Source: a virus. From it: DNA of 31,686 nucleotides. Of the stretch, positions 1 to 22,200 are shown piece by piece (position 1 is the stretch's first letter; each line of letters opens with the position of its first letter). A program made the position numbers and the translations under genes. Where the stretch lies: the IMG/VR virus record IMGVR_UViG_3300022934_002923, positions 1 through 31,686 of that record; one strand, written 5' to 3'. Under the pieces are notes generated by a model. That model was not told where the DNA came from, did no database searches, and was given only the letters and a program-made list of their open reading frames with translations.

Positions 1-126
1 TGCTTCTGTAAGCCAGACTTTACTTTTTATTTGGCCTTTCCAAAAACTTTCTAATGTACGATACCTATCTTCGCTATCGCGGATAGCGTCCATCCAAAAC
101 AATATATCTTCTATTTCAATTTTCAT
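1..126 (-). CDS. Partial CDS, N-terminal 42 residues of an unrecognised phage protein
   Basis: An ATG at 126-124 opens a frame that stays open to the left edge, so only the first 42 codons are present. It begins MKIEIEDILFWMDAIRDSED and continues with an aromatic and basic stretch containing SFWKGQ and SKVWL. The ATG overlaps the TGA of the preceding gene as ATGA, the usual coupling in this operon, which supports the start. The function cannot be decided from this fragment. The SKxWL-type segment recalls the start of SAM-methyltransferase-like proteins in marine phages, but that is a weak impression only. Confidence 0.6.
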   Translation of the reverse strand, partial: MKIEIEDILFWMDAIRDSEDRYRTLESFWKGQIKSKVWLTEA

Positions 127-554
127 AATTTATATTCAAAATTTTGACAGGTTTTGCCTTTACGTAAAAATTTTGCACCATTACGCAAATGAAACTTTTC
201 TGCCATTTCAGTTAACGGACTTAGTGTGCAAAATCTTTTGATGTGAGGCTTTTCTTGTTGTATTTTTTCTGCTGTACTAAAAATAATTTCTCTGCCGGCA
301 CCTTTATCATAACTCCATACAGTATAAAACATTGCTGTATTAGGATTATCAGTGTTGTTTAGTTCTTCTTCTGTAATAACAACACCGTTAGTATATGCAA
401 CACAAACAACTGCACGAGCAACAAACTCTTCGTCGTCTATTAAACAGTAAACTTCTCTACCGTTTACTGTCCGCCAATGCATTGGCAAATGAGGACGTAC
501 TGGATCGTCTTTTACATAACCTAATGTCCAATCGTCATTAACTAATTTTAACAT
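123..554 (-). CDS. GNAT-like acetyltransferase (tentative)
   Basis: This 143-residue protein has the alternating beta/alpha look of a small GNAT-type N-acetyltransferase. A central strand with the acidic turn CLIDDEEFVARAVVCVAY is followed by a helix (REIIFSTAEKIQ) and a C-terminal TLSP...MAEKFHLRNGAKFLRKG segment, which resembles the end of GNAT folds, where a helix leads to an xNGA-type strand. I do not see a clean Q/RxxGxG/A acetyl-CoA loop, so the family call is weak. The start at 554 has AAGG about 9 bases upstream. It overlaps the radical SAM gene before it by 17 bases and the next gene by 4 bases, so it is probably co-translated with them. If it is an acyltransferase, it could acetylate an amino group on a sugar made by the cluster; that is inference. 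Confidence 0.45.
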   Translation of the reverse strand: MLKLVNDDWTLGYVKDDPVRPHLPMHWRTVNGREVYCLIDDEEFVARAVVCVAYTNGVVITEEELNNTDNPNTAMFYTVWSYDKGAGREIIFSTAEKIQQEKPHIKRFCTLSPLTEMAEKFHLRNGAKFLRKGKTCQNFEYKL

Positions 555-1536
555 TTTCTTTTACCTTTGGTAGTTTACTGTCTGCTGAACTTACACAACT
601 TGGTGTAACACATGCTTGGGGCTCTTTAAATATTTCAAATCCTTCAGATAATGTACCCAAAGGTTCTTCGTGACAACTGTAACTACGTTTTACTTCGTTT
701 TCACGTATAACTATTCCTTGGTAACCTGCATTGCAAGTCCACCCTTGAAACTTATTAAAGCCAAACGCATTAAAACGTTCTGCTTGATCTAATTCGTACT
801 CTATTCCTTTATCGTCGTAGAGCGCAACTTGGGCGACTTGGACTTTTCCGACTTGTTGTGGGAATCCGGTTCGCATTTTTTGTATTTGTTCATCAGTGTA
901 TCCATGTACCACGTAGCTGGCGGTAGGATCGGACTGTGGCTTGAGAGTGACGTTAATACCTCTGGCGGCAAATCGTTCAAGCCTTTCGTAAAGATCTTCA
1001 AAAATTTCAGGAACCATAACTTGATTGATTGTAACATAGGTTCCTCCTTTCATTAATTGCAAGCATTTGTCTCCAAACTCTTGCTCGTTAGCAAACTCTG
1101 CATGGTAACTTGCAGTTATACTTCTGCGTTGCAGAGTCTTAGTTGTTTCTAACCATTTGTTCCACCATTTACTTCCTGGACTTAGGTTAGTAGTCATATG
1201 TATACTTTGATATTCAGGTGCTGTATCACTACAGTAATGCTCTATGAGCTCCCCAAAGTATTTATAGGCTGTTGGCTCACCTCCGCTGAAACTGAAATGA
1301 AAGTTATTAAATCCGTTTTCTCTTGCTTGCATTTTTATTTCAGTAAGAGATCGTTTATATAATTCTAAATCTTGATGATCAGGAGTACTTGATCTTGCAT
1401 AAGGCCAGCAGTAACTACAATTATAGTTACAAAATCTCGCAAGAATCCAAGATACTGTAAACAAGTCAGTATCTAATAAAGTTTTTTGACCAAACTTTGT
1501 TATATTATTCCATGGTATGTTTTCGAAATTGTTCAT
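538..1536 (-). CDS. Radical SAM enzyme with C-terminal cysteine cluster (copy 2 of the module)
   Basis: This 332-residue radical SAM protein carries C36-x3-C40-x2-C43 (FCNYNCSYCW), which binds the catalytic [4Fe-4S] cluster, and a GGEP motif at 85-88 (FSFSGGEPTA), which contacts the SAM amino group. After the barrel, Cys268, 288, 309 and 314 form a C-x19-C-x20-C-x4-C set that suggests a twitch/SPASM-like auxiliary Fe-S site. SPASM and twitch proteins often modify peptides but also sugars and alcohols, so the substrate is open. The gene overlaps the GT-A-like gene 1505-2179 by 32 bases and the GNAT-like gene by 17 bases. No strong ribosome site precedes the ATG at 1536, so translation probably depends on coupling. 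The same GT-A-like/radical SAM order recurs at 7144-9416. Enzyme class is secure; reaction is not. Confidence 0.88.
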   Translation of the reverse strand: MNNFENIPWNNITKFGQKTLLDTDLFTVSWILARFCNYNCSYCWPYARSSTPDHQDLELYKRSLTEIKMQARENGFNNFHFSFSGGEPTAYKYFGELIEHYCSDTAPEYQSIHMTTNLSPGSKWWNKWLETTKTLQRRSITASYHAEFANEQEFGDKCLQLMKGGTYVTINQVMVPEIFEDLYERLERFAARGINVTLKPQSDPTASYVVHGYTDEQIQKMRTGFPQQVGKVQVAQVALYDDKGIEYELDQAERFNAFGFNKFQGWTCNAGYQGIVIRENEVKRSYSCHEEPLGTLSEGFEIFKEPQACVTPSCVSSADSKLPKVKENVKIS

Positions 1537-2179
1537 ATAGCCAATCGTAATCGTTAATTAACTGAAGATTATCGCTGTTAGAAATGCCAAACTCCATACC
1601 AGCCCGAGCACCTCGTATCGCATATTCACCAAAGTTTCCATTGCTGACTGTAGTCCATGTGTTAAGCCTTGCGTCTGTTTCTTCATTTACTTGTCCTTGT
1701 ATCGTTTTGCTTGATAGTTTAGCACATTCTCTAAATGCACTGCGCCATGTACTGTACGGATCTGCATTAAAAGCAGTAATATTTGATATTTGATTTACAG
1801 CACAAAATTTATCTGATATGCTTGTAGTCATATCAGGTTTACTTAAATCCATATTGATAGTAAGTTTGCGTGGAAGTAATTTTACTCCACCATAACCGTA
1901 TTCTAAATTGTTAATAGGGTTAATACTACGCCAAACATGCACAGTTTCTAAATTATATTCGTCTACTTCATAGTCAAAGTTAAAGTCGTTTACTAATTGT
2001 GCGTCAGCATCAACAACCCAAAACATTTTAGTAAAACATTTTTTAGCCGCTTTAATGTGTGCTTGGTGTATACCTTTTACGCCGTCAACACGTTTTGCTG
2101 TTGGAAACTTACTTTTTAGCAAATTCCAATTATCTTCTGCATATGCTTCGCCATAACTAATAAAGACAATATCGTACAT
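1505..2179 (-). CDS. GT-A-like glycosyltransferase family protein (copy 2 of the module)
   Basis: This 224-residue protein begins with a Rossmann-type strand (DIVFISYGE) and has FWVVDADAQL, with DAD at 57-59, matching the DxD metal/nucleotide-sugar site of GT-A transferases. It is clearly a paralogue of the 297-residue protein at 8523-9416. Shared elements in order are DIVF(I/L)SY.E..AE.N, AKRV.GV.G...AH, VDAD, YG.GG.K...RK...NM, P...WR..FRE..K and GAR.G. This copy is shorter at both ends and has replaced the loop after the DxD. The donor and acceptor sugars are unknown. It starts the last block of the operon, 31 bases after the SGNH-like gene, and overlaps the radical SAM gene that follows. 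Its ATG has no close Shine-Dalgarno sequence; a weak promoter candidate at 2186-2214 would give a nearly leaderless message. Confidence 0.7.
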   Translation of the reverse strand: MYDIVFISYGEAYAEDNWNLLKSKFPTAKRVDGVKGIHQAHIKAAKKCFTKMFWVVDADAQLVNDFNFDYEVDEYNLETVHVWRSINPINNLEYGYGGVKLLPRKLTINMDLSKPDMTTSISDKFCAVNQISNITAFNADPYSTWRSAFRECAKLSSKTIQGQVNEETDARLNTWTTVSNGNFGEYAIRGARAGMEFGISNSDNLQLINDYDWLYEQFRKHTME

Positions 2180-2185
2180 TTTACT

Positions 2186-2214
2186 ACTTTAACATCTTTC
2201 CTTATTTTTGTCAA
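2186..2214 (-). promoter_or_regulatory. Weak sigma-70-like promoter candidate
   Basis: On the minus strand TTGACA (2214-2209) is separated by 17 bases from TAAAGT (2191-2186), a full -35 and a 4/6 -10 match. It lies in the only gap longer than 1 base within the accessory operon. The predicted start of transcription falls close to the ATG at 2179, so the message would have almost no leader. Chance occurrence in AT-rich DNA is possible. Confidence 0.3.
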
Positions 2215-2999
2215 GTGTTTCGTAAGTATGACCAAATTAAAGAAGCATTTCTTTTATTGTCAAGACGGCCGCAATGTGTTAAATCTCTTGCAGTATTACC
2301 AAACTCTAATTTGTGGCATTTTCCGTAGTATGCCGCATCATCAAAATACGATGCATTAAAAGTTTTTGTACTACTCCACATCCATTTAATTTGATCTATC
2401 TTGAACATTGCTGACATAATAGGATTATATTCGTTTTCAAAAAATCCAGACCAATACGGATCATCTTTAGACCATAATCCTAAAAACTCTGGATGCATTT
2501 TTTTGTAACGTGTTAGTCGGTGTGTATTTGTAAACAAATTAATAACTGCCCACGGCTTAGGATAATTTTTTCTTAATAGATAATTATTAGTTAATGTAAA
2601 GTCTAATGCCGCGCCTGGAACACCTAAATTAATAACAGGCCGATCTGCTTTTTTACTTAGATAGTGAGTAATTGTTTCATCTTCTGCTACTCCAATACCA
2701 GCAGTCATTGAACACCCAAATACAACTATAGAATCTCTCCAAGGTATATTATCAAATTCTGGTGCTCGGTATCCTTTAGAATTTACTATGTATTCAACTT
2801 TTTTAGTTCTATAGTGCCAATCTTCAGGCTGTGTTTGTAGATTTTGTTGAAACAATTCGTATGTGTCACCTGACGAAAATTTATTAGTAAGGACATTAGG
2901 GTTATCGTGATCAAACAACGTTAACCATTTATAAGTTAACAGCTCTTTATCAGTATAATACTCAGGAACCTCTACAGGGGCTTGCGGCCATTCATGCAT
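2211..2999 (-). CDS. SGNH/GDSL hydrolase-like protein
   Basis: This protein of 262 residues (from ATG at 2999) has the SGNH layout. The nucleophile block is VVFGCSMTAGIGV with Ser97, where GCS replaces the classic GDS; a glycine block NLGVPGAALD follows; an asparagine-containing strand INLFTNTHRL fits block III; and DLTHCG near the C terminus fits the DxxH block. Family members are esterases, lipases or carbohydrate O-acyl transferases/deacylases, so here O-acyl removal or addition on a glycan is plausible. An upstream in-frame ATG at 3047 would add 16 residues and overlap the previous gene by 56 bases. I prefer 2999 because GGAG lies 9 bases before it and the overlap drops to 8 bases. The neighbour at 2992-4035 is a second SGNH-like protein. 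The family is fairly sure; the activity is not. Confidence 0.72.
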   Translation of the reverse strand: MHEWPQAPVEVPEYYTDKELLTYKWLTLFDHDNPNVLTNKFSSGDTYELFQQNLQTQPEDWHYRTKKVEYIVNSKGYRAPEFDNIPWRDSIVVFGCSMTAGIGVAEDETITHYLSKKADRPVINLGVPGAALDFTLTNNYLLRKNYPKPWAVINLFTNTHRLTRYKKMHPEFLGLWSKDDPYWSGFFENEYNPIMSAMFKIDQIKWMWSSTKTFNASYFDDAAYYGKCHKLEFGNTARDLTHCGRLDNKRNASLIWSYLRNT

Positions 3000-4035
3000 T
3001 AATATGTTCTCCAAGTAATTTTGCATACAAATCGTGTGCTTTTGCACTTGGATGGCAACAAACTGTTACCCAATGATTCTTTGTTCCTTTACCGTTATAA
3101 TCCCAAAAACCTTTATTAAAGATGCCTTCTTTCTTTAAACACAGATCCATAAAAGTTTCGCAACCATCAGGATAGAACATTTTATCCCAAGGCCATTGAT
3201 CTACAAGTTTTTTAAGTGTTTCTAAATGACCTTCGTGACGATTAGCTTTTAATTTTTCTACAGCGGCTTTACTATCAGAGGCTGACTGATAATAAGTTAT
3301 ATTTTGTCCTCCGTCTCGAACACTGTAATCTTGTAGGATTAAATTAAATTTTTCTTTTGTATAATTTTTATCAAACCCTGGAGTAATAATTAATTTTGCA
3401 TCATTCGCTATACACCAATTTTTTAACTCAATAACATTTCCAATTTGTTCTAAAACAGCAGACTTTTCAGAATATACTGCTTCAGCATAACCTTGCCATA
3501 GAGTTCTTTTAGAGCCCGAAGGTTGATCCCTATAATGTGGCCACATACAATGAAATTGTCCATGTTCATTAAACTCATCATTTGCAAGATCAAATCTTTC
3601 TTGTCCGCTTGGCATATAAATTACTATAATTTCTTTAGCATGATGCCAATCAATATCAGGCCAAAGATATAAAGATCTAATTGATGCTCTATTTCCTCTT
3701 CCTCTTAAGCCAAAATTAATTGGCGTATATTCTTTCTTTAAATATTTTTTACATAAAACATTTACAAAAGAATTTTTATATTCCATGTTTGTCCAATCAA
3801 TCTGATCTCCTTTAAGTTCAAGCTCTGGATAATCTTTAACTAATTGTTTCTTAGCATTACTATCAAGTTTTGGAGCCATAGGAATACCTGTTTTATCCAT
3901 ATGCCAATCGTAACTTTCATACAAGTCTTGATCAACTGCTCCTTGTCCTTCAACAAAAGAACAACCTAAACTAATAACTGCTTTTTTTGTACGTTTTAAA
4001 TCTTTGTTTATTTTATCTATATATTTAAAATACAT
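2992..4035 (-). CDS. SGNH/GDSL hydrolase-like protein, second copy
   Basis: This 347-residue protein opens with a strand and nucleophile block AVISLGCSFVEGQG (Ser26), followed by INFGLRGRGNRAS as the glycine block and VIYMPSGQERF where block III should be. It ends in VCCHPSAKAHDLYAKLL, a C-terminal His block typical of SGNH proteins. About 100 residues before the end form an insert with aromatic and lysine-rich segments. No signal peptide or membrane segment is seen, so it should act in the cytoplasm of the infected cell or in the virion. GGAG lies 8 bases before the ATG, and the previous gene ends 1 base away, so the two are probably translated together. It is only distantly similar to the next gene outside the catalytic blocks. 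A carbohydrate esterase or acyltransferase role is inference. Confidence 0.65.
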   Translation of the reverse strand: MYFKYIDKINKDLKRTKKAVISLGCSFVEGQGAVDQDLYESYDWHMDKTGIPMAPKLDSNAKKQLVKDYPELELKGDQIDWTNMEYKNSFVNVLCKKYLKKEYTPINFGLRGRGNRASIRSLYLWPDIDWHHAKEIIVIYMPSGQERFDLANDEFNEHGQFHCMWPHYRDQPSGSKRTLWQGYAEAVYSEKSAVLEQIGNVIELKNWCIANDAKLIITPGFDKNYTKEKFNLILQDYSVRDGGQNITYYQSASDSKAAVEKLKANRHEGHLETLKKLVDQWPWDKMFYPDGCETFMDLCLKKEGIFNKGFWDYNGKGTKNHWVTVCCHPSAKAHDLYAKLLGEHINA

Positions 4036-4036
4036 G

Positions 4037-5362
4037 TTAGTCTCCTACGTGATCTTGTATTTTTAAAACCGACGATGGAAGTTTTTTAGTTGTATTATCA
4101 ATAAGTACTTCATAATTATAGTCTAATACCGGTTTCATTGATTTAAACCATGTTAATTTTTTATCGTTTGGCATTTCTTTTATTTCTTTGATTAATTTAA
4201 TAATTGCTTCTAATCTATCCCATGTATCGAGTTCGTCGTAACTTTCGTCAAAATAATCGCTAAATGTTTTGTATCCTAATTCATGTAAATATTTAAGACT
4301 ATGTTTATTTCCGTATGTTATAAACGGATGTCGAGCCGCAACAGGTTTAAAACTTTTTTCACTAATAAAACAGGTATTCTCAGCAAAAGATGCTTCGCTT
4401 ACAACACTTATCCAACTATCTCGTGTTTCTTGATGATACAAATCTCTTTCAAAAAGTCCTCCCATAGGCCCTTCAAATTCTTTTCTTTTTAGATCGTTTA
4501 AATCTTTTCTTGGATACATTGGAAGTAAAGGCGCTAATTTATTATACTCATCAACTGTAAGAACCTTGCCTTCATAATGAGAATTTCCTCGAACAAAAAA
4601 ATTCATACTGTTTATGCCATCATCTAACAAATTATTTTCTACTAACTTATGAAACATCCAAATACGATGTGGTCTATTTCTTTTTTGAAAACAGTTATAT
4701 GTTTTGATATTGTCTAAATTAGCAGACTTGTATTCAATATGATCATCAACTGTTGGTAATACATCTTGTTGTTTTTTAGCACTATCTTGTATAAAGGATT
4801 CAAATTGAATATTAGGAATTACACACATTTGTTCTGTAATATTGTTTAAATTACAATATTCTTTATATTGTGCTTCAACTGCCATATTACCCGTAACATA
4901 TATAATTTGTGATGGTGGCAAATTGTATTTTTTACATGCATCATGAAACCAATCAAACAACCAGTCAGTATGATATCCTTCGTGAGACTGATCTAATAAT
5001 AAAAAGGCTTTTTGTTTTCTCATTGCACCTAAAATTTTAGGATGCAGATAATAAAAAATAGTATAACGATCTACCATTGATCTATCATATAATTTATCTA
5101 AATCTTTAAACCCACACCAGTCCCAAGGAGCATGTGTTACTCCAACCGGAATTACATATTTTTTATATTTTTTTCTGTTGTTAAATGTATCAAAAACAAC
5201 TTCTCCTGGAGAAAAATTATTAAATTTCCATTTTAAAGTTTTATATCTTGCAAGTGTGCCAATAAGAGGACTTGCTGGAAATCTTTTAATTGTAGACGGA
5301 TTAACATCTTTACAATTTTGTACATTTAATTTTTGTGAAAGATCTTCAAAAATAAAATTCAT
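4037..5362 (-). CDS. Glycosyltransferase-like protein with EKxFKP motif
   Basis: This is a 441-residue protein from the ATG at 5362, which overlaps the previous stop as ATGA. An in-frame ATG at 5374 would add four residues (MGKE) and is the alternative start. The C-terminal third has SVVSEASF, then FISEKSFKPVAARHPFI at about 332-348 and LKYLHELGYKTF. This order of a Glu-containing strand, EK(S/T)FKP and HPFI, then a GYKTF helix is seen in many phage and bacterial proteins related to GT-B sugar transferases, including fucosyltransferase-like (GT10-like) ones, where it forms the nucleotide-sugar side. The N-terminal half, with VTHAPWDWCGF and LLLDQSHEGYH, I do not recognise. Position between a 2OG oxygenase and SGNH-like genes fits a glycan role. 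Donor sugar and acceptor are unknown. Confidence 0.6.
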   Translation of the reverse strand: MNFIFEDLSQKLNVQNCKDVNPSTIKRFPASPLIGTLARYKTLKWKFNNFSPGEVVFDTFNNRKKYKKYVIPVGVTHAPWDWCGFKDLDKLYDRSMVDRYTIFYYLHPKILGAMRKQKAFLLLDQSHEGYHTDWLFDWFHDACKKYNLPPSQIIYVTGNMAVEAQYKEYCNLNNITEQMCVIPNIQFESFIQDSAKKQQDVLPTVDDHIEYKSANLDNIKTYNCFQKRNRPHRIWMFHKLVENNLLDDGINSMNFFVRGNSHYEGKVLTVDEYNKLAPLLPMYPRKDLNDLKRKEFEGPMGGLFERDLYHQETRDSWISVVSEASFAENTCFISEKSFKPVAARHPFITYGNKHSLKYLHELGYKTFSDYFDESYDELDTWDRLEAIIKLIKEIKEMPNDKKLTWFKSMKPVLDYNYEVLIDNTTKKLPSSVLKIQDHVGD

Positions 5363-6126
5363 TTCCTTACCCATTCCTCAACATTAGTACCAGTAACTTT
5401 ACTTCTACGTTCAATTAAGTCTAATATTGTTTTATCATTTTTTTGAGCATCTGTTGGCAAAAATAATGCTCGCTGTCTTTTGTCTGCATCTTTATCAGGA
5501 TGTGTTAGATAATATACTGCAATACTATTACGTGTTTTATCAACTGGGCAATTAACTTCTGTTGCAAGGCCATGCCAGCTATCCTGCGTAGTATCAAAAA
5601 AGATTGCTCTATTAAATAAAGGAGCAATTTTTTCTTTTAAATTTTTGTCTTTATCCCAAAGTCCAAAGTGTCCGCCCCATTCTTCTTGCCAATCAGGTGT
5701 TAGATAAATTAACAAATTAAATTTTCTTTGTAGTCCTAACTTTGGATGTATACTATAATCTAAATGAGGATTTAACTTTCCGCCTGCAGGATGTGTATGC
5801 CAACCACCGCCATGTAATCCTGGATCAGAATATAAATCATTGCATCCTGTAAGTTCTGAAATAATTTTAATAAATTCAGGAGAATTTAATTCGTGTAATA
5901 ATTTATAAGTATTAGGCAAAAATTTATCCCAAACATTACATGTCTTCTTTAATTCAATTTCGTTATCATAATTACCGTTATAACTTTTAGAATTAAAATT
6001 AGGAAATTCTTGTGCTACCTTATCAGCAACTGTTTGATCTAAAAAGTTGTCTATAACACAATAATTAAAAGGCTTTTTTTTAGAAAAATCTTTAAATTGT
6101 GTTTCCAGACTGCACACATTAACCAT
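5359..6126 (-). CDS. 2-oxoglutarate/Fe(II)-dependent oxygenase (prolyl 4-hydroxylase-like)
   Basis: This 255-residue protein shows the double-stranded beta-helix oxygenase signature. H121-L-D123 (NPHLDYS) and H185 (DSWHGL) form the Fe(II) facial triad, and R199-N-S201 (KTRNSIAVYYL) is the RxS pair that binds the 2-oxoglutarate carboxylate. Spacing and the WGGHFGLWD turn match the prolyl 4-hydroxylase/2OG-FeII_Oxy_3 family, which hydroxylates proteins or small molecules using O2 and 2-oxoglutarate. Such enzymes are frequent in marine T4-like phages, but targets are mostly unknown. Here it lies between the RmlB-like gene (8-base overlap) and a glycosyltransferase-like gene (ATGA overlap), so hydroxylation of a sugar or of a glycosylated protein is a reasonable guess. 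Class is secure; substrate is not. Confidence 0.87.
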   Translation of the reverse strand: MVNVCSLETQFKDFSKKKPFNYCVIDNFLDQTVADKVAQEFPNFNSKSYNGNYDNEIELKKTCNVWDKFLPNTYKLLHELNSPEFIKIISELTGCNDLYSDPGLHGGGWHTHPAGGKLNPHLDYSIHPKLGLQRKFNLLIYLTPDWQEEWGGHFGLWDKDKNLKEKIAPLFNRAIFFDTTQDSWHGLATEVNCPVDKTRNSIAVYYLTHPDKDADKRQRALFLPTDAQKNDKTILDLIERRSKVTGTNVEEWVRK

Positions 6127-7147
6127 TAACCAGCCACCTATTATTATCTAAAGTCCAATGAATTACTTTTTCAAGTTTATCAAATGCACTACTTGGCTTC
6201 CATCCCATATCTGCCATCTTTGTTCCATCAAGTGCATAACGTAAATCATGCCCCGGACGACTGCTATGGAAATCGACCATTTCATAATTTAAAGGCTTAC
6301 CTTGTGTATCTGCAATAAACTGTGCAAGTTCAAGATTGTTAATTTCTGTACTACCTACAATATTAAACTTTTGACACTTAGCTCCTGTTTCGTCTGGCTT
6401 TAACTTGCTTAAATCATACTGGTATAAAAATAATAATGCATCTGCAACATCTTTTGCATGAATATAATGTCGACTTCCTGCAACTGTTTTTTCTGCGTTT
6501 GAATGCACTGTTACTAATTCGTTATCTCTTACTCGTTTAATACACATAGGAATATACTTTTCTGCATTTTGTCTTTCACCAAATACATTCATAGTATGTG
6601 TAATAATAGCAGGTAGGCCGTAAGTGTTTTCGTAAGCAACAACTAATTCGTTGCCTGCCGCTTTTGTAGCACTATAAGGATTTGTGCTATTATATCTATC
6701 ATTCTCTTTATAACTAATACCGGCCGGTGCAGGGCCAAAAATTTCATCTGTACTAAAGTAGGCAAACATATCTAAACTATCTAAGTTTCGAGCATAGTCT
6801 AACAAATTTGTTGTTCCAACTACATTATCTAACACAAATTCCATTGGATATGAAATACTGCGATCAACGTGTGATCCTGCGGCTAAGTGAGCAATAAGAT
6901 CTACTTTGCCTATCATTGCACGAATTTGCGGATTTAGTTCTGCCTTTAAATCATGATGTACTATGCGAACACGTTTACGTTCTTGTTCTGGATATGTCAT
7001 CATTACTTCATGCAACCTATTTAAGTTGCCGCTGTAATCTAATCTGTCTAATGTAACAATTCTCCAATCAGTTTCTGATAGAATTTTATCTATCAAATGA
7101 TGTGCAATAAATCCTGCTCCGCCGGTTACTAATACTGTTTTACTCAT
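6119..7147 (-). CDS. rmlB: dTDP-glucose 4,6-dehydratase-like (RmlB family)
   Basis: This is an extended short-chain dehydrogenase of 342 residues. The N-terminal TGGAGFI (8-14) binds NAD, TDE at 133-135 (FSTDEIFG) is the dehydratase Asp/Glu pair with its Thr, and Y158-x3-K162 (YSATK) is the catalytic pair. RPGHDLRYALD near the C terminus is characteristic of RmlB, which turns dTDP-glucose into dTDP-4-keto-6-deoxyglucose, the precursor of rhamnose and many deoxy/amino sugars. GDP-mannose dehydratases are an alternative, but the C-terminal motif argues for dTDP. The start at 7147 overlaps the previous stop as ATGA and has AGGA 7 bases upstream; a longer in-frame start at 7171 is less likely. 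RmlA, RmlC and RmlD are absent from the window, so the remaining steps come from the host or from elsewhere in the phage. Confidence 0.88.
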   Translation of the reverse strand: MSKTVLVTGGAGFIAHHLIDKILSETDWRIVTLDRLDYSGNLNRLHEVMMTYPEQERKRVRIVHHDLKAELNPQIRAMIGKVDLIAHLAAGSHVDRSISYPMEFVLDNVVGTTNLLDYARNLDSLDMFAYFSTDEIFGPAPAGISYKENDRYNSTNPYSATKAAGNELVVAYENTYGLPAIITHTMNVFGERQNAEKYIPMCIKRVRDNELVTVHSNAEKTVAGSRHYIHAKDVADALLFLYQYDLSKLKPDETGAKCQKFNIVGSTEINNLELAQFIADTQGKPLNYEMVDFHSSRPGHDLRYALDGTKMADMGWKPSSAFDKLEKVIHWTLDNNRWLVNG

Positions 7148-8526
7148 AGTTCTTCCTGTGTTAATTTCCAAAAATTTTCTAATTCTGGAAATGTGTCTAT
7201 CAAATTAGTGTTACGTCTACGATCATGTTCTGTAAACCAATTATAAAAATTTTTTCTTGCTAATTTTAAATTAGATTCTTCATAATGTGTCGACTCCATG
7301 TAATCAACAACTCTTTTAAATTTTTCGTATTCTAAAGATGTAAATTTAGTACGATCAGAATCATTTACATTATCTTTAATAAATTGCAAATGTTTATGCA
7401 TATATGGCATATATTCCTCTTTTGGAAGAATATTCATATCATAAATTGTAGGCTCTTTTAAATGCGGAGTATCAAATCTTACACGTTGCCATTGTGTTTC
7501 ATTTTTATCTCCGTTATATTTCTTACGCCATTCTAAAATCTTAGCAAGCAATGTATCAAAACTTGTTACACTAAACAAATTAAAAGTAATCATAAATGTT
7601 ACTGGCCAACCTGTATTAGACAAATAATAATCTAAATTCTTTTCCCAAAGACCAATATCTAAACCTGTGCGTGTATATTCTGCACGTTTTGTCCAAGTGT
7701 CAATACTTGTATACAATTTAAAACTACGAATTTTATTTTCGTCTTTTAAACGTCTTACTGTATCAGTAAGTTTTTGTACTAATTTATGTTTGACACCTAA
7801 ATTACTATTAAGTTCTATTTGAATATGCGGCTTAGGATCATTATCTAACCGTTCAAAAAGCTCCCATGTGCTTTTGTGCATAAGAGGTTCACCTCCTGTA
7901 ATACGCAAAATGTTAAGTGTCTTGCTTACTTCAGGCCACCATTTCCACCAGGCATCTACATAGGGGTTGTCTTCTTCACGTTGATATACTTTAAACCAAT
8001 CTATGTCTTGTCTGTGGTCGGTGCTTTTTTCGTAAGGACCGTGTTGTTTGATTTCGTTCCAGTATCTGCTGGAGGCTTTCGGGTGACAGTAACCGCACTT
8101 AAAGTTACATTCATTCGAGAAAGATATTTCAATATATTCAGGGTTGATATCATAATTAAATCCGTTTTCTTTAATCTCAGTTAATCTTTCAGGAGTATAT
8201 ATACTCGCTGTTTTAATATGTCTATCACTTACATAGTCTTTACCCATTGCTTCAATTTTCCAGCAATAGTTACAACCAGTAGGCTTTTGGCCTTCTATCA
8301 TTTGCCTGCGTTGATCTTTTTTCTCTTTTGTATTATGTAATGCACTTGGGTTATCTGCAATCTCTTCTAAAGGAATAGGATGAGGTGCAGGATGATAACA
8401 CGAATGCGTTTCGCCTGTTTGTAAATATATTGTTGTGTGATGCCATTTAGCCATACAGAATGTAGGACTTATTTCTTTATCTGTAATTGGCAAAATGTTT
8501 TTAATTTTAATTAATTCGTTATTCAT
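7144..8526 (-). CDS. Radical SAM protein with N-terminal cysteine cluster (copy 1 of the module)
   Basis: This 460-residue radical SAM enzyme carries C140-x3-C144-x2-C147 (NECNFKCGYC) for the catalytic [4Fe-4S] cluster and GGEP at 211-214 (RITGGEPLMH) for SAM. Before the barrel a second cysteine set, C24, C43, C85 and C88 (C-x18-C-x41-C-x2-C; FCMAKW...SCYHP...CNYCW), probably holds an auxiliary cluster in twitch-like fashion but at the N terminus. Proteins of this layout are often annotated as twitch-domain radical SAM proteins in marine viruses and bacteria; no reaction is established that I can name. The start at 8526 overlaps the GT-A-like gene as ATGA and has AGGA about 8 bases upstream. 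It is much longer than the copy at 538-1536 and carries its extra cysteines at the other end, so the two may act on different substrates. Confidence 0.88.
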   Translation of the reverse strand: MNNELIKIKNILPITDKEISPTFCMAKWHHTTIYLQTGETHSCYHPAPHPIPLEEIADNPSALHNTKEKKDQRRQMIEGQKPTGCNYCWKIEAMGKDYVSDRHIKTASIYTPERLTEIKENGFNYDINPEYIEISFSNECNFKCGYCHPKASSRYWNEIKQHGPYEKSTDHRQDIDWFKVYQREEDNPYVDAWWKWWPEVSKTLNILRITGGEPLMHKSTWELFERLDNDPKPHIQIELNSNLGVKHKLVQKLTDTVRRLKDENKIRSFKLYTSIDTWTKRAEYTRTGLDIGLWEKNLDYYLSNTGWPVTFMITFNLFSVTSFDTLLAKILEWRKKYNGDKNETQWQRVRFDTPHLKEPTIYDMNILPKEEYMPYMHKHLQFIKDNVNDSDRTKFTSLEYEKFKRVVDYMESTHYEESNLKLARKNFYNWFTEHDRRRNTNLIDTFPELENFWKLTQEEL

Positions 8527-9416
8527 TTATAAGTCCTAACTACACGAGGAGTATTTCTATAAATTGACTTAAAAAAATGACTCGACTCTGCGTCTAACTC
8601 TCCAATTTCTATGCCTAAAGATTCTCTAAGTTTATCGCCTAACTCTTTAATTTCGTTATTGATGTCATTAATGCCTTCAACGTTGTTTGACCAATAATCA
8701 TTTAACCATTTAAAGTCTCTTACTTCTGCATGGTTCCAATCAGTACACATTGTTTTATATAATCCTTGACGAGCACCTAAAATGCTCCAAAGTCCGTGTT
8801 CTACATCTGCACCTACTGAGCACCAAATACGCAAACGGTCAAAGTTTTGCCACCAAGTTTTGCGAAGATCTTCTACTTTAGTCCCTTGATCCAAACACAT
8901 CTTAACACCTTCACGAAAACCCGCCCGCCAAGCCTGCCAAGGTGTCGCATTAGTATAAGAAACGCTGTAGTTCTCGTTAAACTGGTAATACTTGTCATCA
9001 AAACAAAACTCCACTTGTCCTTTATCGTCGCCATCTTCACTTGCTTCGTGCGTTTTCATGTTGTGAACAAATTTACGTGTCCACATTTTAAGTCCGCCGT
9101 TGCCGTACATTAGTCCATTAACATGTACTTTGCCACACCAACTAAAAACATGCTCAGGTGTAACGCCTAATTCATCTAAATCTATCTCCTGATTTAAAAA
9201 CTCAGGATTAATAATATTGTCTGCGTCTACAGTAACAAAATATTCAGTTTCACTTATGTCTGCACACGCTTTGTGTGCGGCATCACTTCCGTGTACACCA
9301 TGTACACGTTTAGCCCAAGGAACTTTTTGACACAAATCAGCATAGTTCTTTTCTGCGTTAGGTTCATCATAACTTAAAAAAACTATATCTTGGTCAACAA
9401 CTCTAATCTTGCTCAT
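8523..9416 (-). CDS. GT-A-like glycosyltransferase family protein (copy 1 of the module)
   Basis: This 297-residue protein is the longer paralogue of the protein at 1505-2179. It opens with a nucleotide-binding-type strand (DIVFLSYDEPNAE), then AKRVHGVHGSDAAH and FVTVDADN with a DxD at 64-66, followed by MYGNGGLKMWTRKFVHNM and a WQAWRAGFREGVK helix. The DxD after a hydrophobic strand supports a GT-A nucleotide-sugar transferase, although I do not recognise a defined GT family. A C-terminal helix rich in Glu (residues about 250-280, near NDINNEIKELGDKLRE) may form a coiled coil. AAGGA lies 7 bases before the ATG. The gene overlaps the unknown 194-residue gene by 14 bases and the radical SAM gene by 4 bases. 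Confidence 0.7.
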   Translation of the reverse strand: MSKIRVVDQDIVFLSYDEPNAEKNYADLCQKVPWAKRVHGVHGSDAAHKACADISETEYFVTVDADNIINPEFLNQEIDLDELGVTPEHVFSWCGKVHVNGLMYGNGGLKMWTRKFVHNMKTHEASEDGDDKGQVEFCFDDKYYQFNENYSVSYTNATPWQAWRAGFREGVKMCLDQGTKVEDLRKTWWQNFDRLRIWCSVGADVEHGLWSILGARQGLYKTMCTDWNHAEVRDFKWLNDYWSNNVEGINDINNEIKELGDKLRESLGIEIGELDAESSHFFKSIYRNTPRVVRTYK

Positions 9417-9987
9417 TAAATATCCTTGTTAAACTGTAAGTGTCAAACTTTCTTGCAGTATAAACACTTAATACCTGTTTTTCTGTTTCAAAAGGCATAC
9501 TAAACGGTACTACATAATAGTTATCGCTCATTGCTTGGCCGACATGGACAGAAAGAGTTTTATAAAGTATGTTAGGATCACCTTTAGCTGTTACACTAAA
9601 CAATATTGAAGAATTTAAATTAACACCTTTTGCTCTAATATTCTTTTTAAGCTGATTTCCTACTTTAATTTTCCAACAAGTATTTGGTATGTCTTGTACT
9701 AACTGTATATCAGCATCGTCAATTTCATTTTCTGGTATTTCGTATATAAAATCTTTAACTGATATCGAATCTAAAAAGTGTTCATATTTACTTTGCAGTT
9801 CTAATTCCTTTGTTTTAGGATTATACTGAACACTATAGTTACTTAATGGTTCTATACCTTTCTTTAAAGACATAACATCTGACAAAGGTACAGTAATATA
9901 AGTATCTTCTTTAGTAACTATATTTGATATACTAATTATTTTTCCGTTTTCTTTATTAAAAACTACATAAGCTACTCTGTCAGACAT
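9403..9987 (-). CDS. Unknown protein, 194 residues
   Basis: I do not recognise this protein. It is beta-rich, with an N-terminal strand pair (VAYVVFNKENGKIISISN), a polar middle with a short acidic stretch (PENEIDDADIQLV), and a C-terminal half with alternating hydrophobic strands (LYKTLSVHVG, YYVVPFSM). No signal peptide, membrane segment, metal motif or nucleotide-binding loop is visible, and only one cysteine is present. It overlaps its upstream and downstream genes by 16 and 14 bases, so it belongs to the operon. Its place between a GT8-like and a GT-A-like transferase suggests a helper or acceptor role, but a structural protein is equally possible. Confidence 0.7.
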   Translation of the reverse strand: MSDRVAYVVFNKENGKIISISNIVTKEDTYITVPLSDVMSLKKGIEPLSNYSVQYNPKTKELELQSKYEHFLDSISVKDFIYEIPENEIDDADIQLVQDIPNTCWKIKVGNQLKKNIRAKGVNLNSSILFSVTAKGDPNILYKTLSVHVGQAMSDNYYVVPFSMPFETEKQVLSVYTARKFDTYSLTRIFNEQD

Positions 9988-10808
9988 TTTTCATACTTCC
10001 TTATTATATCATCAGTAACAAAATTGTTTTCAGTGTAATGAAAAATTGAATCTTGTAAATGATTACCAATTTTTAACTTTAAATCATTAGAAACATAAAC
10101 GCCAACTCTGCTTTGCCATTCAGAAACACTATTTTTCCATCCTTGAATGGCAGGTTTCATATGTACTATTAATGGCATATCGTGTTTAGCATTGGTTATT
10201 TCTGTATCAATATCTAAAATTTTTGCGGCAATAGCACAAGTAACATCCATACTTGGCATTTTAGGATAAAAGTTTTTACAGAAATTACCGTAAAATAACT
10301 CCCAGTTATTTGAAATAAGTTCTACCCATGTAAAGTATTGTTTACTTTTATCGCATTTTTTAAAGAAATGTAAAGTATTATATACATTTGGTAAATTATT
10401 TGCAACAAATGCCTTGCGATAGAAATTACTGGTAACTAATTCTTGTCTATATGTAAAAACTCTGGTTGGATAGTAAAGATCATAGTTTTCCATTAAAGAC
10501 CAAAAGTGCTCTAAGTCTTGTTGTACAAGAATATCAGTGTCTAAAACTATGGTTTCTTCATAAGGACTTACGTGATACAACTTCCAACGATTTTCTACTT
10601 GAAATCTGCTGTTAGTTTTCTTATACCAAGGAATGTCAATTACCTTATCAAACACCTTTTTATAAGTGTCTGAGATATTATCGTTAGAAACAATACTTAT
10701 AGGATATTGATTTCCGCTGGCTTTAAGACTTAATGCACACAAATATGCTTGCTTTACATATGTTTCGCCTGATGCATATACTAAAAAGCCTCTATTCGGT
10801 AATTTCAT
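9972..10808 (-). CDS. GT8-like glycosyltransferase (tandem copy 2)
   Basis: This 278-residue protein has the layout of GT8-type retaining transferases. An N-terminal strand and helix (GFLVYASGETYVKQAYLCA) is followed by SNDNISDTYKKVFDKVI and the core RWKLYHVSPYEETIVLDTDI with the metal-binding DTD at 90-92. Later NNWELFYGNF and MDVTCAIAAKIL fit the second half of the fold. It is a paralogue of the next gene upstream (10792-11682): both share YxKQAYxxA, SPY(E/D)ET(I/L)(V/L)LDTD and an NW..(F/Y).N motif. Overlap is 17 bases with that gene and 16 with the unknown gene after it. No membrane segment is seen. Donor and acceptor are unknown; glycogenin-like and LPS-type transferases belong to the same family. 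Confidence 0.7.
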   Translation of the reverse strand: MKLPNRGFLVYASGETYVKQAYLCALSLKASGNQYPISIVSNDNISDTYKKVFDKVIDIPWYKKTNSRFQVENRWKLYHVSPYEETIVLDTDILVQQDLEHFWSLMENYDLYYPTRVFTYRQELVTSNFYRKAFVANNLPNVYNTLHFFKKCDKSKQYFTWVELISNNWELFYGNFCKNFYPKMPSMDVTCAIAAKILDIDTEITNAKHDMPLIVHMKPAIQGWKNSVSEWQSRVGVYVSNDLKLKIGNHLQDSIFHYTENNFVTDDIIRKYEKCLTE

Positions 10809-11682
10809 CTATGCACCTATTTAAACTAAATTTATTCATAACGTGAACATTGGCGTTTTTAACACGCATTGGGGTATATTCTCCTTTATGTTCTTGTTTT
10901 TCTAATAACAGCAACATAGAAGTATCATTTAATGTCCATAATATACTTTTATCTGTTGTATAATATAATGTACCCGGCATTGGTTTTGCAAAGTCGCCTT
11001 TTTGGTATCCGTTCATAATATGAATAGCGATTGCAAAACTATAATCATTTCTATAATACGGAGTATTAATTTGGAATATGTTATTATAGTGTGTCCAATT
11101 TTCTTGTATATGTTGAAGCAGATCAAAGAAAATTTTATTTTCTTTTGTCTTTCTAAAAAAGACACAAGTTGCCCAGTAAAAATCTACACTTGTATCTGAA
11201 ATTCTTTCAAAAACATTAGATCGATCTTGTTGTGCAAGATCATATGAAGTTTTATAAATTAAAAAGTTGTGTTCTTGATCAAAGCACTTAGTAAAAATGT
11301 CATTGCAAATTACAACATCTGTATCTAAAATTAATGTTTCGTCATATGGAGAGATATCATATGCAAGTGTTCGTGTTTCATTTTTAAACTCTAACTTTTT
11401 CTCAATTAATGTGCCATCATTAAAAGTTCTAATCCCATGCTTTTCTGTCTTTGATAAAGTTGTATTATTTTTTAAATCCTCTTCTTTCCAAACAATACTA
11501 ACAATATTATCAAATACATCTGTTGCATCCGGATATTCAGACAATAAAAATGCTGTACTATCTGTTACAATAGTAGTAGGCAAATTTAAGTATTTGCGTA
11601 TACGTTTTGCAAGAAAATATGCTTGCTTGCAATAATCAATCTGTGCATTATTACGAGCAAATAATAATACACCTTTACTCAT
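10792..11682 (-). CDS. GT8-like glycosyltransferase (tandem copy 1)
   Basis: This 296-residue paralogue of the gene at 9972-10808 opens with GVLLFARNNAQIDYCKQAYF, and the DTD metal site is at 120-122 (DETLILDTDVVICNDIF). A 30-40 residue polar insert (about 66-105, KNNTTLSKTEKHG to LEFKNETRT) separates the first strands from the DxD part and is absent from its neighbour. The second half has FYWATCVFFRK, ENWTHYNNIF and DYSFAIAIHIM, matching positions in the partner. The ATG at 11682 overlaps the stop of the small first gene by 8 bases and has only a weak ribosome site, so coupling is likely. It is the first enzyme gene after the sigma-70-like promoter. Fold call is moderately sure; substrate is unknown. 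Confidence 0.68.
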   Translation of the reverse strand: MSKGVLLFARNNAQIDYCKQAYFLAKRIRKYLNLPTTIVTDSTAFLLSEYPDATDVFDNIVSIVWKEEDLKNNTTLSKTEKHGIRTFNDGTLIEKKLEFKNETRTLAYDISPYDETLILDTDVVICNDIFTKCFDQEHNFLIYKTSYDLAQQDRSNVFERISDTSVDFYWATCVFFRKTKENKIFFDLLQHIQENWTHYNNIFQINTPYYRNDYSFAIAIHIMNGYQKGDFAKPMPGTLYYTTDKSILWTLNDTSMLLLLEKQEHKGEYTPMRVKNANVHVMNKFSLNRCIDEITE

Positions 11683-19233: not shown

Positions 19234-19241
19234 TATTTATC
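19234..19241 (-). promoter_or_regulatory. Late promoter motif GATAAATA
   Basis: GATAAATA on the minus strand overlaps the stop codon of the giant gene and ends 19 bases before the ATG at 19215. It matches the NATAAATA form of late promoters in marine T4-like phages and is identical to the motif at 14686-14693. Confidence 0.5.
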
Positions 19242-22200
19242 GTGGTAGCTCAGTTGTCTTAGCACGTAAGAACTTAGCAATGTTAGAATCGCTATTTGCT
19301 ATAGTAGTTCCTCTGTCAGACCATGTTGTACCGATCTTTCTAATAATAGTTACTGTTGTCCCTTCTGGTGGTGGAGTTGTTAAACGCACATATGCTCCTA
19401 TATTTTTATTTACAGCATACTCTGCCTCTAAGATTATGTCCCCTTCTGGACTATCTTGTGCATCGTAATTATACTTACTTATCGGAGTTTTACGTAAACG
19501 CCTACCAGCTACGAAAACTTCAATATCCTGTGCTTCCCAATATTCTTCTGGAATAGTGTCTTTATACCAATCTGTTGCACTTGCTGGGTTAGGAATAGGT
19601 GCAAATGGTAATAAAATTTGAACATATTTAATACCTCCAGGAACAACAAAACTTGTTTGTGGAGTATCAATAGGTACAGTTGTAAACGGATTTACAACAA
19701 TCAAGTCATATGATCCAACAGGTAGTGCAGGAGTTACAAAGGTTAATTCATTTTCTGAAATAAATGTTGCTTCGCATTTTGTTGTTCCAACGTAAATTTC
19801 TACCCTATCTGTAAATCCTGTTCCAATAACTGTTGTTACTTGTCCGCCTAATGGAAATGCCGTATTATTATTAAAGTCATATGTAATACTGGTTACGCCC
19901 ATTCCTGGGCTGTTTTCATAACTGTCGCTTCCAGTACTAAATCCAGAAGATGTAACTGTAATTATTTCTTCTTCGTCTTTGTATGGTAATGTAGTATCAA
20001 CACCTTGTTCCATAAGCATTGTGCCAGCGTCATAAACATCTTTAACACCTGTTCCAAGTGTTCCTCTGCGAAGTTGTAATAGTTCGTTACCTACTTTCCT
20101 AAAGTATTCAATTCTCTCACCCTCAATAAAGATAACGCCTGGATATTTTGCTCCAACTTCAGGCTCCGGTAATCCGTTACCGTCAACAACTTTAATTGTC
20201 TTATCATACCAATTTAATGGCTCTTCTAAATGATAAATTTCTTCAAGACGTTTATAATGAGTTCTATTAAGAATGTCTTTAAACTGACGCCAGCCAAACT
20301 TATCAACTACTGTATTATCAGAAAAATGTAATACTTGTAGTTTGTCACCTTCGTTTGGTTGTTGAACTAATTTAACATAACGTCTATTTGAAGTAATACT
20401 ATAATCAACACTTGGAGATAGTAAATCGCCGTTTTTAACTACCCAAACATATTCTGCGTCTCTTGCAGGTTTACGTAATGTAATATAGCCTTTTTCAAGT
20501 AGTTTAAAATCGTAATATAATTTAGTACCAGGTGTAGTTTCAGTTTTTTCTGTAACTTCAAAACTTTGTCTTTCAAAACCTTGACTATCGTGATTACTAA
20601 ATTGGTAAACTGTAATAGTATCATCTTCGCTAAATGCATTATCTAAGTTTAATACTTTTGGCGTTTTAACATATGTATTATCTTGTTCATAATACCCCAT
20701 TCTGTATTCACCCGAAGTAAGAACATATACTGTTAATTCATCACCATCTTCGCCAATACCTGCGGCAAGTGTAACAGTGCTACCTGGCTGCGATTGAGGA
20801 GGTACATTTGGATTAAACGATCCTGCGCCTTCAAATGTCCAGTTTTGTAAATACTCAAGTTCAATACCGTTTAGGTATACTGCCAAGTCAAAAGAGTTAA
20901 CTGTTGCAGTTGGAATTTGTGTTAAATCTAATTGGTATTCTCTTAGTGCAGTAGTAACTTCAAATTTTTGACTGTAACCAGGATCTAAAATCTTATTGTT
21001 TACTTTAACTAACACATAAGCACTTTCTGGCTGTTGTTCAAATGGTGCTTGAGACAATTCGTATTGTGTTGTGCTTCCATCGGCAGTAAATGTATCAATA
21101 TTTACAGTACTGTATTGCTGGAATATTTCAACGCCGCCTACTGCTAACATCATTTGTATAATTGCGCCATCTTTAGGCGGCGTAGCAAATCTTACTACAA
21201 AATTACCACTATTTTCGTATGTGTCATCGGACTCGACTAAAGTTATGTCTACAACTTCGCCATCTACAGTTACTAATCCGTTTGCATTATCTTCAAATCT
21301 TGCATTAGTTAAGAAATCTATTGTAGTTCCGTTACCAATAAATGTATCAATATCTAAAATTGTTGTTGCACTAACTCCAAGATTAATAATATTAATTCTT
21401 GAATTATCTGCAGGCGGATTAAAGAAAATTACTTGATTAGTTGCAACGTCTACTGTATAATCATTTGTGTTCATTACTGTGTAATCAACTTTAACAAACA
21501 AGTTGGCAAATTGACCTATTGGTGTTCCTATGTCAAAATTAGATTTTACTCCATTACCAATATAATTTCTACAAGTAATTTGACTACTACCACCAGATGG
21601 TTTTTCGTAAACTTGGATATCTACAGTGTCTAATGTTTGTCCTGGAACAATTTCTTCAGGACCTTTAGATGTTGTTGGCGTAACAAATCCGTCGCCGTCA
21701 ATATTAATATCTGCAGAATCTAATCCTGTAGCTGTTCCATATATTAAATTGCCGCCATCAATTGATGTGTCAAAACTATCTGGATCAGGAATAAACGATC
21801 CGTCTGAAGTAACTTTACGAATTACTATTGCAAGTCTTACTTCTCCTGTTTGTAATTCAGTATCTAAACCTAAATCATTAACATCAAGTTCAGTTTCTTG
21901 ATTTCCTTGTATTGGTAGCATATTTGCATACGGATTATCCTGTGTACCTACTGTAGAGCCGTCCCATTCAGAATCATCAACTCTATAATTTGTTAAGACT
22001 TGCCCATTAGCATCATATGCTGTTCTGTAAACATTATATTCTATTCCTTCTTCAAGCGGAGTGTTTAAAGGTAATGTATTACTAACATTAATTGGTGTTC
22101 TAACAGAGCTATCTGCGCCAATTAGCGTACTATCTTCTCCATATATTTCATCTTCTGTTGAAAAATTAGAATCAAAGTCTGCTTGCAATGTTACAGTTGT

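Follow-up and report, generated by a model that had tools for sequence, protein, structure and literature searches.

Why should a virus carry, at two places in one operon-like run, a gene for a glycosyltransferase A (GT-A)-like protein followed, with overlap, by a gene for a radical S-adenosylmethionine (SAM) enzyme? The question is raised by IMG/VR virus record IMGVR_UViG_3300022934_002923, a stretch of 31,686 bases that was analyzed in full and is termed the window. Its genes lie on the minus strand in an almost unbroken run, and all window coordinates given below refer to that strand. GTl_long (8523..9416) and rSAM_long (7144..8526) overlap by 4 bp, and GTl_short (1505..2179) and rSAM_short (538..1536) by 32 bp, as a preliminary description of the sequence had reported. 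Overlap of neighbors was found to be general along the operon (most gene pairs) and is not peculiar to these two. The preliminary description took the pairs for a duplicated two-gene module and for a functional unit. The analysis presented here instead placed GTl_short at the head of a five-gene cassette that recurs in related phages and, in altered order, in Bdellovibrionota. This shared gene set is probably a working pathway that makes or alters a surface sugar.

The GT-A-like paralogues

GTl_long (297 aa) and GTl_short (224 aa) had been described as clear paralogues sharing several sequence blocks. Indeed, the two proteins aligned with 33% identity over 231 columns (E 1e-29), and the named blocks were for the most part invariant in an alignment of 44 GTl homologues (VDAD with D63 and D65, G..AH, YG.GG.K and W...FRE; about 30 invariant positions in total). 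The DxD metal-binding motif expected of a GT-A fold is thus present, D63 and D65 being invariant (n=44). Neither protein matched a family in Pfam or in NCBIfam (the latter at E <= 0.1), and a sequence search against the PDB returned noise only.

The AlphaFold model of GTl_long (pLDDT 87.8) was compared with the PDB by Foldseek, the check that the preliminary description had recommended. Fifteen matches were obtained at E <= 0.001; 14 were glycosyltransferase chains, and the other was a nucleotidyltransferase with a related fold. ThuS/SunS led the matches (best E 5e-5), which also included polypeptide GalNAc transferases, RmlT, the PBCV-1 capsid glycosyltransferase, TarP and SpsA. The model therefore supports a GT-A-like fold at superfamily level only, and transfer activity is predicted.

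One GTl_long and one GTl_short were present in 12/12 longer phage contigs, either adjacent or several kb apart. In a tree built by a quick method (moderate support; the careful search is unfinished) the long and short proteins formed separate groups with bacterial members within both, and the duplication is therefore old. On a Bdellovibrionales chromosome a single open reading frame of 516 aa beside pheS/pheT fuses GTl_long and GTl_short (L460:8486-10036, minus strand). The two proteins probably act together as glycosyltransferases.

A separate variant of GTl_short was seen at four loci (L121:6897-8933, L113:1929-3632, L085:9337-10722 and L137:6897-8636). These proteins, of 350-680 aa, carry several degenerate N-terminal half-domain repeats, with VW.N/VWYD instead of VDAD, ahead of an intact C-terminal domain.

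The radical SAM partners

Both partners exceeded the Pfam Radical_SAM cut-off of 29.5 bits (PF04055; rSAM_short 53, rSAM_long 34), and the CxxxCxxC motif with the Radical_SAM domain was found in these two and in two further enzymes of the cassette, rSAM360 and NTwi480. The preliminary description had noted that the partners differ in length (460 and 332 aa) and hold their extra cysteines at opposite ends, and both observations were borne out. In rSAM_long C24, C43, C85 and C88 precede the core cysteines C140/C144/C147, whereas in rSAM_short C268, C288, C309 and C314 follow the core C36/C40/C43; each set was invariant in 61/61 aligned homologues of the respective protein. By sequence, both sets have the form of a four-cysteine auxiliary cluster site (Twitch/SPASM), which makes rSAM_long an N-terminal twitch/SPASM-type enzyme and gives rSAM_short a C-terminal twitch-type motif. 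PF13186 scored over its cut-off in NTwi480.

NF033640, the NCBIfam family of twitch domain-containing radical SAM proteins (N_Twi_rSAM; cut-off 170 bits), accepted rSAM_long (317 bits) and NTwi480 (390 and 421 bits) but not rSAM_short (36 bits) or rSAM360 (42-50 bits). Consistent with this, the hhalign match between rSAM_long and NTwi480 spanned 430 columns, the full length of rSAM_long (E 9e-36). The match between rSAM_long and rSAM_short was confined to 155 columns of the core (E 2e-8), no more than rSAM_long shares with rSAM360. On profile and alignment criteria rSAM_long and rSAM_short are thus different families. The interpretation as a duplicated two-gene module is not upheld, because the radical SAM partners are related in the core only, the full-length kin of rSAM_long is NTwi480, and the long and short GTl clades each contain bacteria.

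A viperin/pVip-like defense function was considered for rSAM_short and rejected. The protein scored 39 bits against NF038283 (cut-off 180), over residues 27-100 only, and 35 bits, in the core only, against the PADLOC pVip profile.

Auxiliary clusters of the SPASM/twitch type are common among radical SAM enzymes that modify peptides. The main alternative to a sugar pathway is accordingly that the cassette makes a peptide-derived modification, with the radical SAM and GT-like proteins acting on a protein, such as a tail fiber or a precursor like those of ribosomally synthesized and post-translationally modified peptides (RiPPs), to yield C-glycosyl, thioether, epimerized or methylated residues. 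The leading fold matches of GTl, ThuS and SunS, are peptide S-glycosyltransferases, and a 2-oxoglutarate (2OG) enzyme of the neighboring cargo showed a weak match to a 2OG oxygenase that modifies peptides (26 bits; cut-off 150). Partial NCBIfam matches of the radical SAM enzymes include peptide maturases, but these matches are confined to the radical SAM core and lie far under the cut-offs. Moreover, neither a precursor peptide nor a gene resembling a RiPP recognition element was noticed in the cassettes of phages or bacteria, although no dedicated search was made, and the neighbors of bacterial GTl genes are glycan enzymes. This alternative is considered unlikely.

The cassette downstream of GTl_short

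In relatives with longer sequence, GTl_short is the first gene of a cassette that continues with rSAM_short, a class I methyltransferase, rSAM360 and NTwi480, an N-terminal-SPASM radical SAM enzyme. The opening genes of this cassette lie in the window, which stops 42 codons into the methyltransferase, the 5′ end of which (bases 126-1, minus strand: MKIEIEDILFWMDAIRDSEDRYRTLESFWKGQIKSKVWLTEA) is cut by the contig end and is homologous to L433:13621-14223. Counts were made over the 44 non-redundant rSAM_short genes of phages for which the next five genes downstream could be seen. Within these five genes the methyltransferase was found in 44/44, NTwi480 in 39/44 and rSAM360 in 31/44; where rSAM360 was not downstream, it often lay just upstream (several loci). 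The methyltransferase (200 aa) had no confident Pfam match, and its predicted structure (pLDDT 96.4) matched class I SAM methyltransferases (E 1e-9, TM 0.6-0.7).

The preliminary description had stated that the proposed pairing would be undermined if homologues of the GT-like protein were rarely next to radical SAM genes. How often each gene follows GTl depends on the query used to draw the sample. With GTl_long as query (66 non-redundant genes), GTl_short came next, without an intervening radical SAM gene, in 37/66 cases and rSAM_long in 23/66. With GTl_short as query, 39/50 genes were followed by rSAM_short. The objection thus applies in part to the pair itself and does not apply to the GTl_short cassette. 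The idea of a functional unit was sound but drawn too small: the link between GTl and radical SAM genes is conserved in phages and, reordered, in Bdellovibrionota, but the unit exceeds a pair.

The link could also be positional only, if the site after the GT-like genes is a hypervariable slot that chance or selfish transfer has filled with many radical SAM genes. Most cassette phages with long contigs carry 5 to 15 radical SAM genes in the island, and the remaining cargo is highly variable, both of which would suit such a slot. This explanation is disfavored, however, by the presence of the methyltransferase at every locus counted and by the recurrence of particular families in one neighborhood in phages and two bacterial classes, with differing gene orders, and we regard it as very improbable.

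The bacterial counterpart

Bacterial genomes were scanned as well, and GTl was present in Bdellovibrionota, Rhodobacterales, Streptomyces, Bacteroidota and further groups. In Bdellovibrionota, GTl was found alongside NTwi480, rSAM360, often the methyltransferase, and orthologues of rSAM_short that shared 46-59% identity with the protein of the window (two orthologues being partial); order and strands varied, and most contigs were large. In two class-wide surveys (144 + 129 = 273 genomes), rSAM_short was present in 21 genomes and GTl in 20, with both in 16, rSAM_short only in 5 and GTl only in 4 (Fisher p 3e-18, uncorrected for relatedness). Judged from their positions, the two genes lay within ~6 kb of one another in 11/16 of the genomes holding both.

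In genome G020 the cassette directly follows pheS and pheT (named from sequence) and is therefore chromosomal. It is adjoined by phage-like p337, p296, MT3 and p194 genes and a second GTl_long. The p337-p296-MT3-p194-GTl_long block at L460:11388-15799 lies on the Bdellovibrionales chromosome that also has the fused GTl gene. The phage-like block beside the bacterial cassette is the footprint left by genes passing between phages and Bdellovibrionota.

This footprint, together with the orthologous cassettes on large bacterial contigs, is also what would be expected if the phage genes were auxiliary metabolic or surface-modifying genes from Bdellovibrionota-like hosts, altering host polysaccharide for superinfection exclusion or protection against competitors and having no role in the virion. 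The glycosyltransferases of pelagimyophages are read in this way in PMC7029224. In the phages, however, these genes and those of the tail adhesin belong to a single operon-like run, and a role restricted to the host surface is considered unlikely.

Outside the cassette, GTl keeps company with other glycosyltransferases. In cassette-free bacteria it lies beside GT-B glycosyltransferases (Rhodobacterales L367/L368, Streptomyces L424, Dyadobacter L386), and in a Paraburkholderia metagenome-assembled genome (MAG) an EryCIII/UDPGT-like GT-B domain is fused to a GTl domain (L372:6732-8930). These arrangements argue for a glycan role.

The tail operon and its variable island

The run of genes in the window begins with a 4110-aa protein (19237-31569) bearing FG-GAP, TIG and CBM5/12 domains, which is likely a giant tail adhesin. 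It is followed by a tail-collar-domain protein and more structural-type genes, and the operon that leads to the GT-like genes is contiguous with both. Next come p296 (10792..11682) and a GT8/Mannosyl_trans3-like transferase (9972..10808; PF11051 E 5e-5), to whose family p296 is related by shared profile matches, and then p194 (9403..9987), a small gene conserved upstream of GTl_long. The gene order at the transferase is conserved.

The two GTl genes frame the variable island. In the window, rSAM_long is followed by two cargo genes, a nucleotide-sugar 4,6-dehydratase/epimerase-like gene (6119..7171; GDP_Man_Dehyd E 3e-47; TIGR01181 240 bits, under the 365-bit cut-off) and a 2OG-Fe(II) oxygenase (5359..6126; PF13640 E 7.5e-18), and then by the variable island gene p445 (4037..5374) and two SGNH-like proteins. 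Of these two, the first (2992..4035, 347 aa) has no Pfam match and is named a putative SGNH hydrolase from a GCS start motif, and the second (2211..3047, 278 aa) is tentatively SGNH/GDSL-like from weak matches under the cut-offs. After rSAM_short the window continues with hyp143 (123..554), which resembles the MCD C-terminal domain (PF05292, 25.8 bits, cut-off 23.2) and is possibly a GNAT-type acetyltransferase. No tRNA or Rfam RNA was found in the window.

Taken over all islands, the cargo included UDP-glucose/GDP-mannose dehydrogenase, epimerase, DegT and class III aminotransferases, 2OG oxygenases, a hexapeptide transferase and a carbamoyltransferase. The commonest variable gene was p445 (56 members, 37/45 loci), for which the Pfam search was negative. 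Over 37 kb (16.5-53.4 kb) of the T4-like contig G001 there were 15 radical SAM matches, 14 of them over the family cut-off. A 91-kb phage contig had apparent P450-, tryptophan-halogenase- and AMP-binding-like genes beside GTl_short (L015:7023-10674), as assigned from a pooled Pfam tally and the sequences.

The lineage of these phages was approached through a 67-kb contig, G010, whose GTl_short and both radical SAM proteins are 100% identical to those of the window and which carries a T4-type gp23 capsid gene. Such a capsid gene (PF07068) was found in 7 related contigs, G010 included. The G010 capsid protein is nearest (~70% identity) to those of jumbo myoviruses such as Sinorhizobium phage Phosso and Vibrio phage 2.275.O. 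Host assignment through this protein was attempted and abandoned, the nearest relatives being several unrelated jumbo phages that indicate no host. A tblastn search of deposited (isolate) phage records with GTl_long, GTl_short and rSAM_short gave no match, and hundreds of IMG/VR stretches matched GTl/rSAM_short; the lineage is therefore common but uncultured.

Three contigs (73-161 kb) were free of cargo, with at most one radical SAM match each, below the cut-off. We infer that these are of the freshwater type. Marine pelagimyophages carry radical SAM cassettes in a host recognition cluster (HRC), and the freshwater members are described as having no radical SAM genes (Zaragoza-Solas et al. 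2020, PMC7029224); the contrast between cargo-free and cassette contigs seen here agrees with theirs. In the quick tree the cargo-free phages were nested inside the cargo-bearing ones, which leans toward loss of cargo in freshwater-type phages over their never having had it. The idea that the GTl genes were at first an adjacent pair without cargo, into which an insertion came later, had been prompted by the adjacent pairs in L109-L159; it was dropped as unproven, loss being at least as likely.

The proposed pathway

Fold classes, cysteine motifs, gene order, conservation and the bacterial version are shown by the analysis; the following scheme is proposed for the substrate, order of steps, chemistry, product location and biological effect. 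In marine-type T4-like phages the GTl pair stands at the end of the tail-fiber operon and frames a variable island of genes that build or modify sugars. Enzymes of the island (dehydratase, oxygenase, acetyl/acyl enzymes) would make or vary a nucleotide sugar, and the GT-like pair would pass it on to an acceptor, which is probably a glycan of the virion tail adhesin or the host surface. The methyltransferase and the cassette's three radical SAM enzymes may tailor the sugar or acceptor by oxidations, carbon-carbon bond changes or methylations beyond the reach of ordinary sugar enzymes. The outcome would be a rare decorated sugar that alters adsorption or superinfection. The central proposal, that the GT-like pair, the radical tailoring enzymes and the methyltransferase make an unusual glycan destined for the tail adhesin or the host surface, is put at about an even chance. 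The wider one is advanced more tentatively, at somewhat less than that: T4-like aquatic phages would share with Bdellovibrionota a hitherto undescribed pathway, whose heterodimeric GT-A-like transferase, methyltransferase and three radical SAM enzymes would give a radical-made sugar (or sugar-peptide) decorating the phage adhesin or the cell surface.

Several points weigh against these proposals. The true substrate of the cassette might be a peptide or small molecule and not a sugar. GTl resembles its PDB matches only remotely (query TM ~0.3). The nearest solved structures of rSAM_short match the core only, and no cassette protein has a characterized close relative. The test of co-occurrence of rSAM_short and GTl in bacteria is uncorrected for shared ancestry, and most of the bacterial genomes are MAGs. 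Finally, freshwater-type phages, Rhodobacterales and Streptomyces carry GTl without the cassette; GTl therefore does not need it.

The recurring gene set, its bacterial version and the fused GTl pair offer a concrete pathway for expression and testing. The cassette could reveal new glycan chemistry in abundant aquatic viruses, and its distribution documents gene exchange between phages and Bdellovibrionota. The radical-SAM-rich islands of marine T4-like phages have been noted before and still lack an explanation.

Comparison with known systems

In mycofactocin-type clusters a radical SAM/SPASM enzyme, a GT-A glycosyltransferase and a methyltransferase act on one product. The combination of the same three enzyme types makes mycofactocin a working analogy for the cassette. 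The likeness is limited in that GTl matched no NCBIfam model at E <= 0.1, that of MftF included, that three radical SAM enzymes are present here, and that no precursor was noticed, although no dedicated search for one was made.

The literature searched, with subscription journals and preprints outside its scope, held no description of the cassette, the GT-like pair or the Bdellovibrionota version. Two earlier accounts come nearest. TARA_ERS488813_N000010 is a T4-like marine viral genome with 12 radical SAM genes (Nishimura et al. 2017, PMC5332604); in the parts of that paper that concern them, these genes are discussed as iron-sulfur metabolism, and a cassette or glycosyltransferase link is not stated. 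The pelagimyophage HRC is likewise described, as far as the relevant parts of PMC7029224 go, with no definition of the cassette, the GT-A-like pair or a bacterial counterpart. Unlike those phages, the close relative G010 has a capsid nearest to named jumbo myoviruses. Radical-SAM-rich T4-like islands were thus already on record; the gene set, the GT-like pair and the bacterial version appear, from the papers searched, to be new, and the product is possibly unusual.
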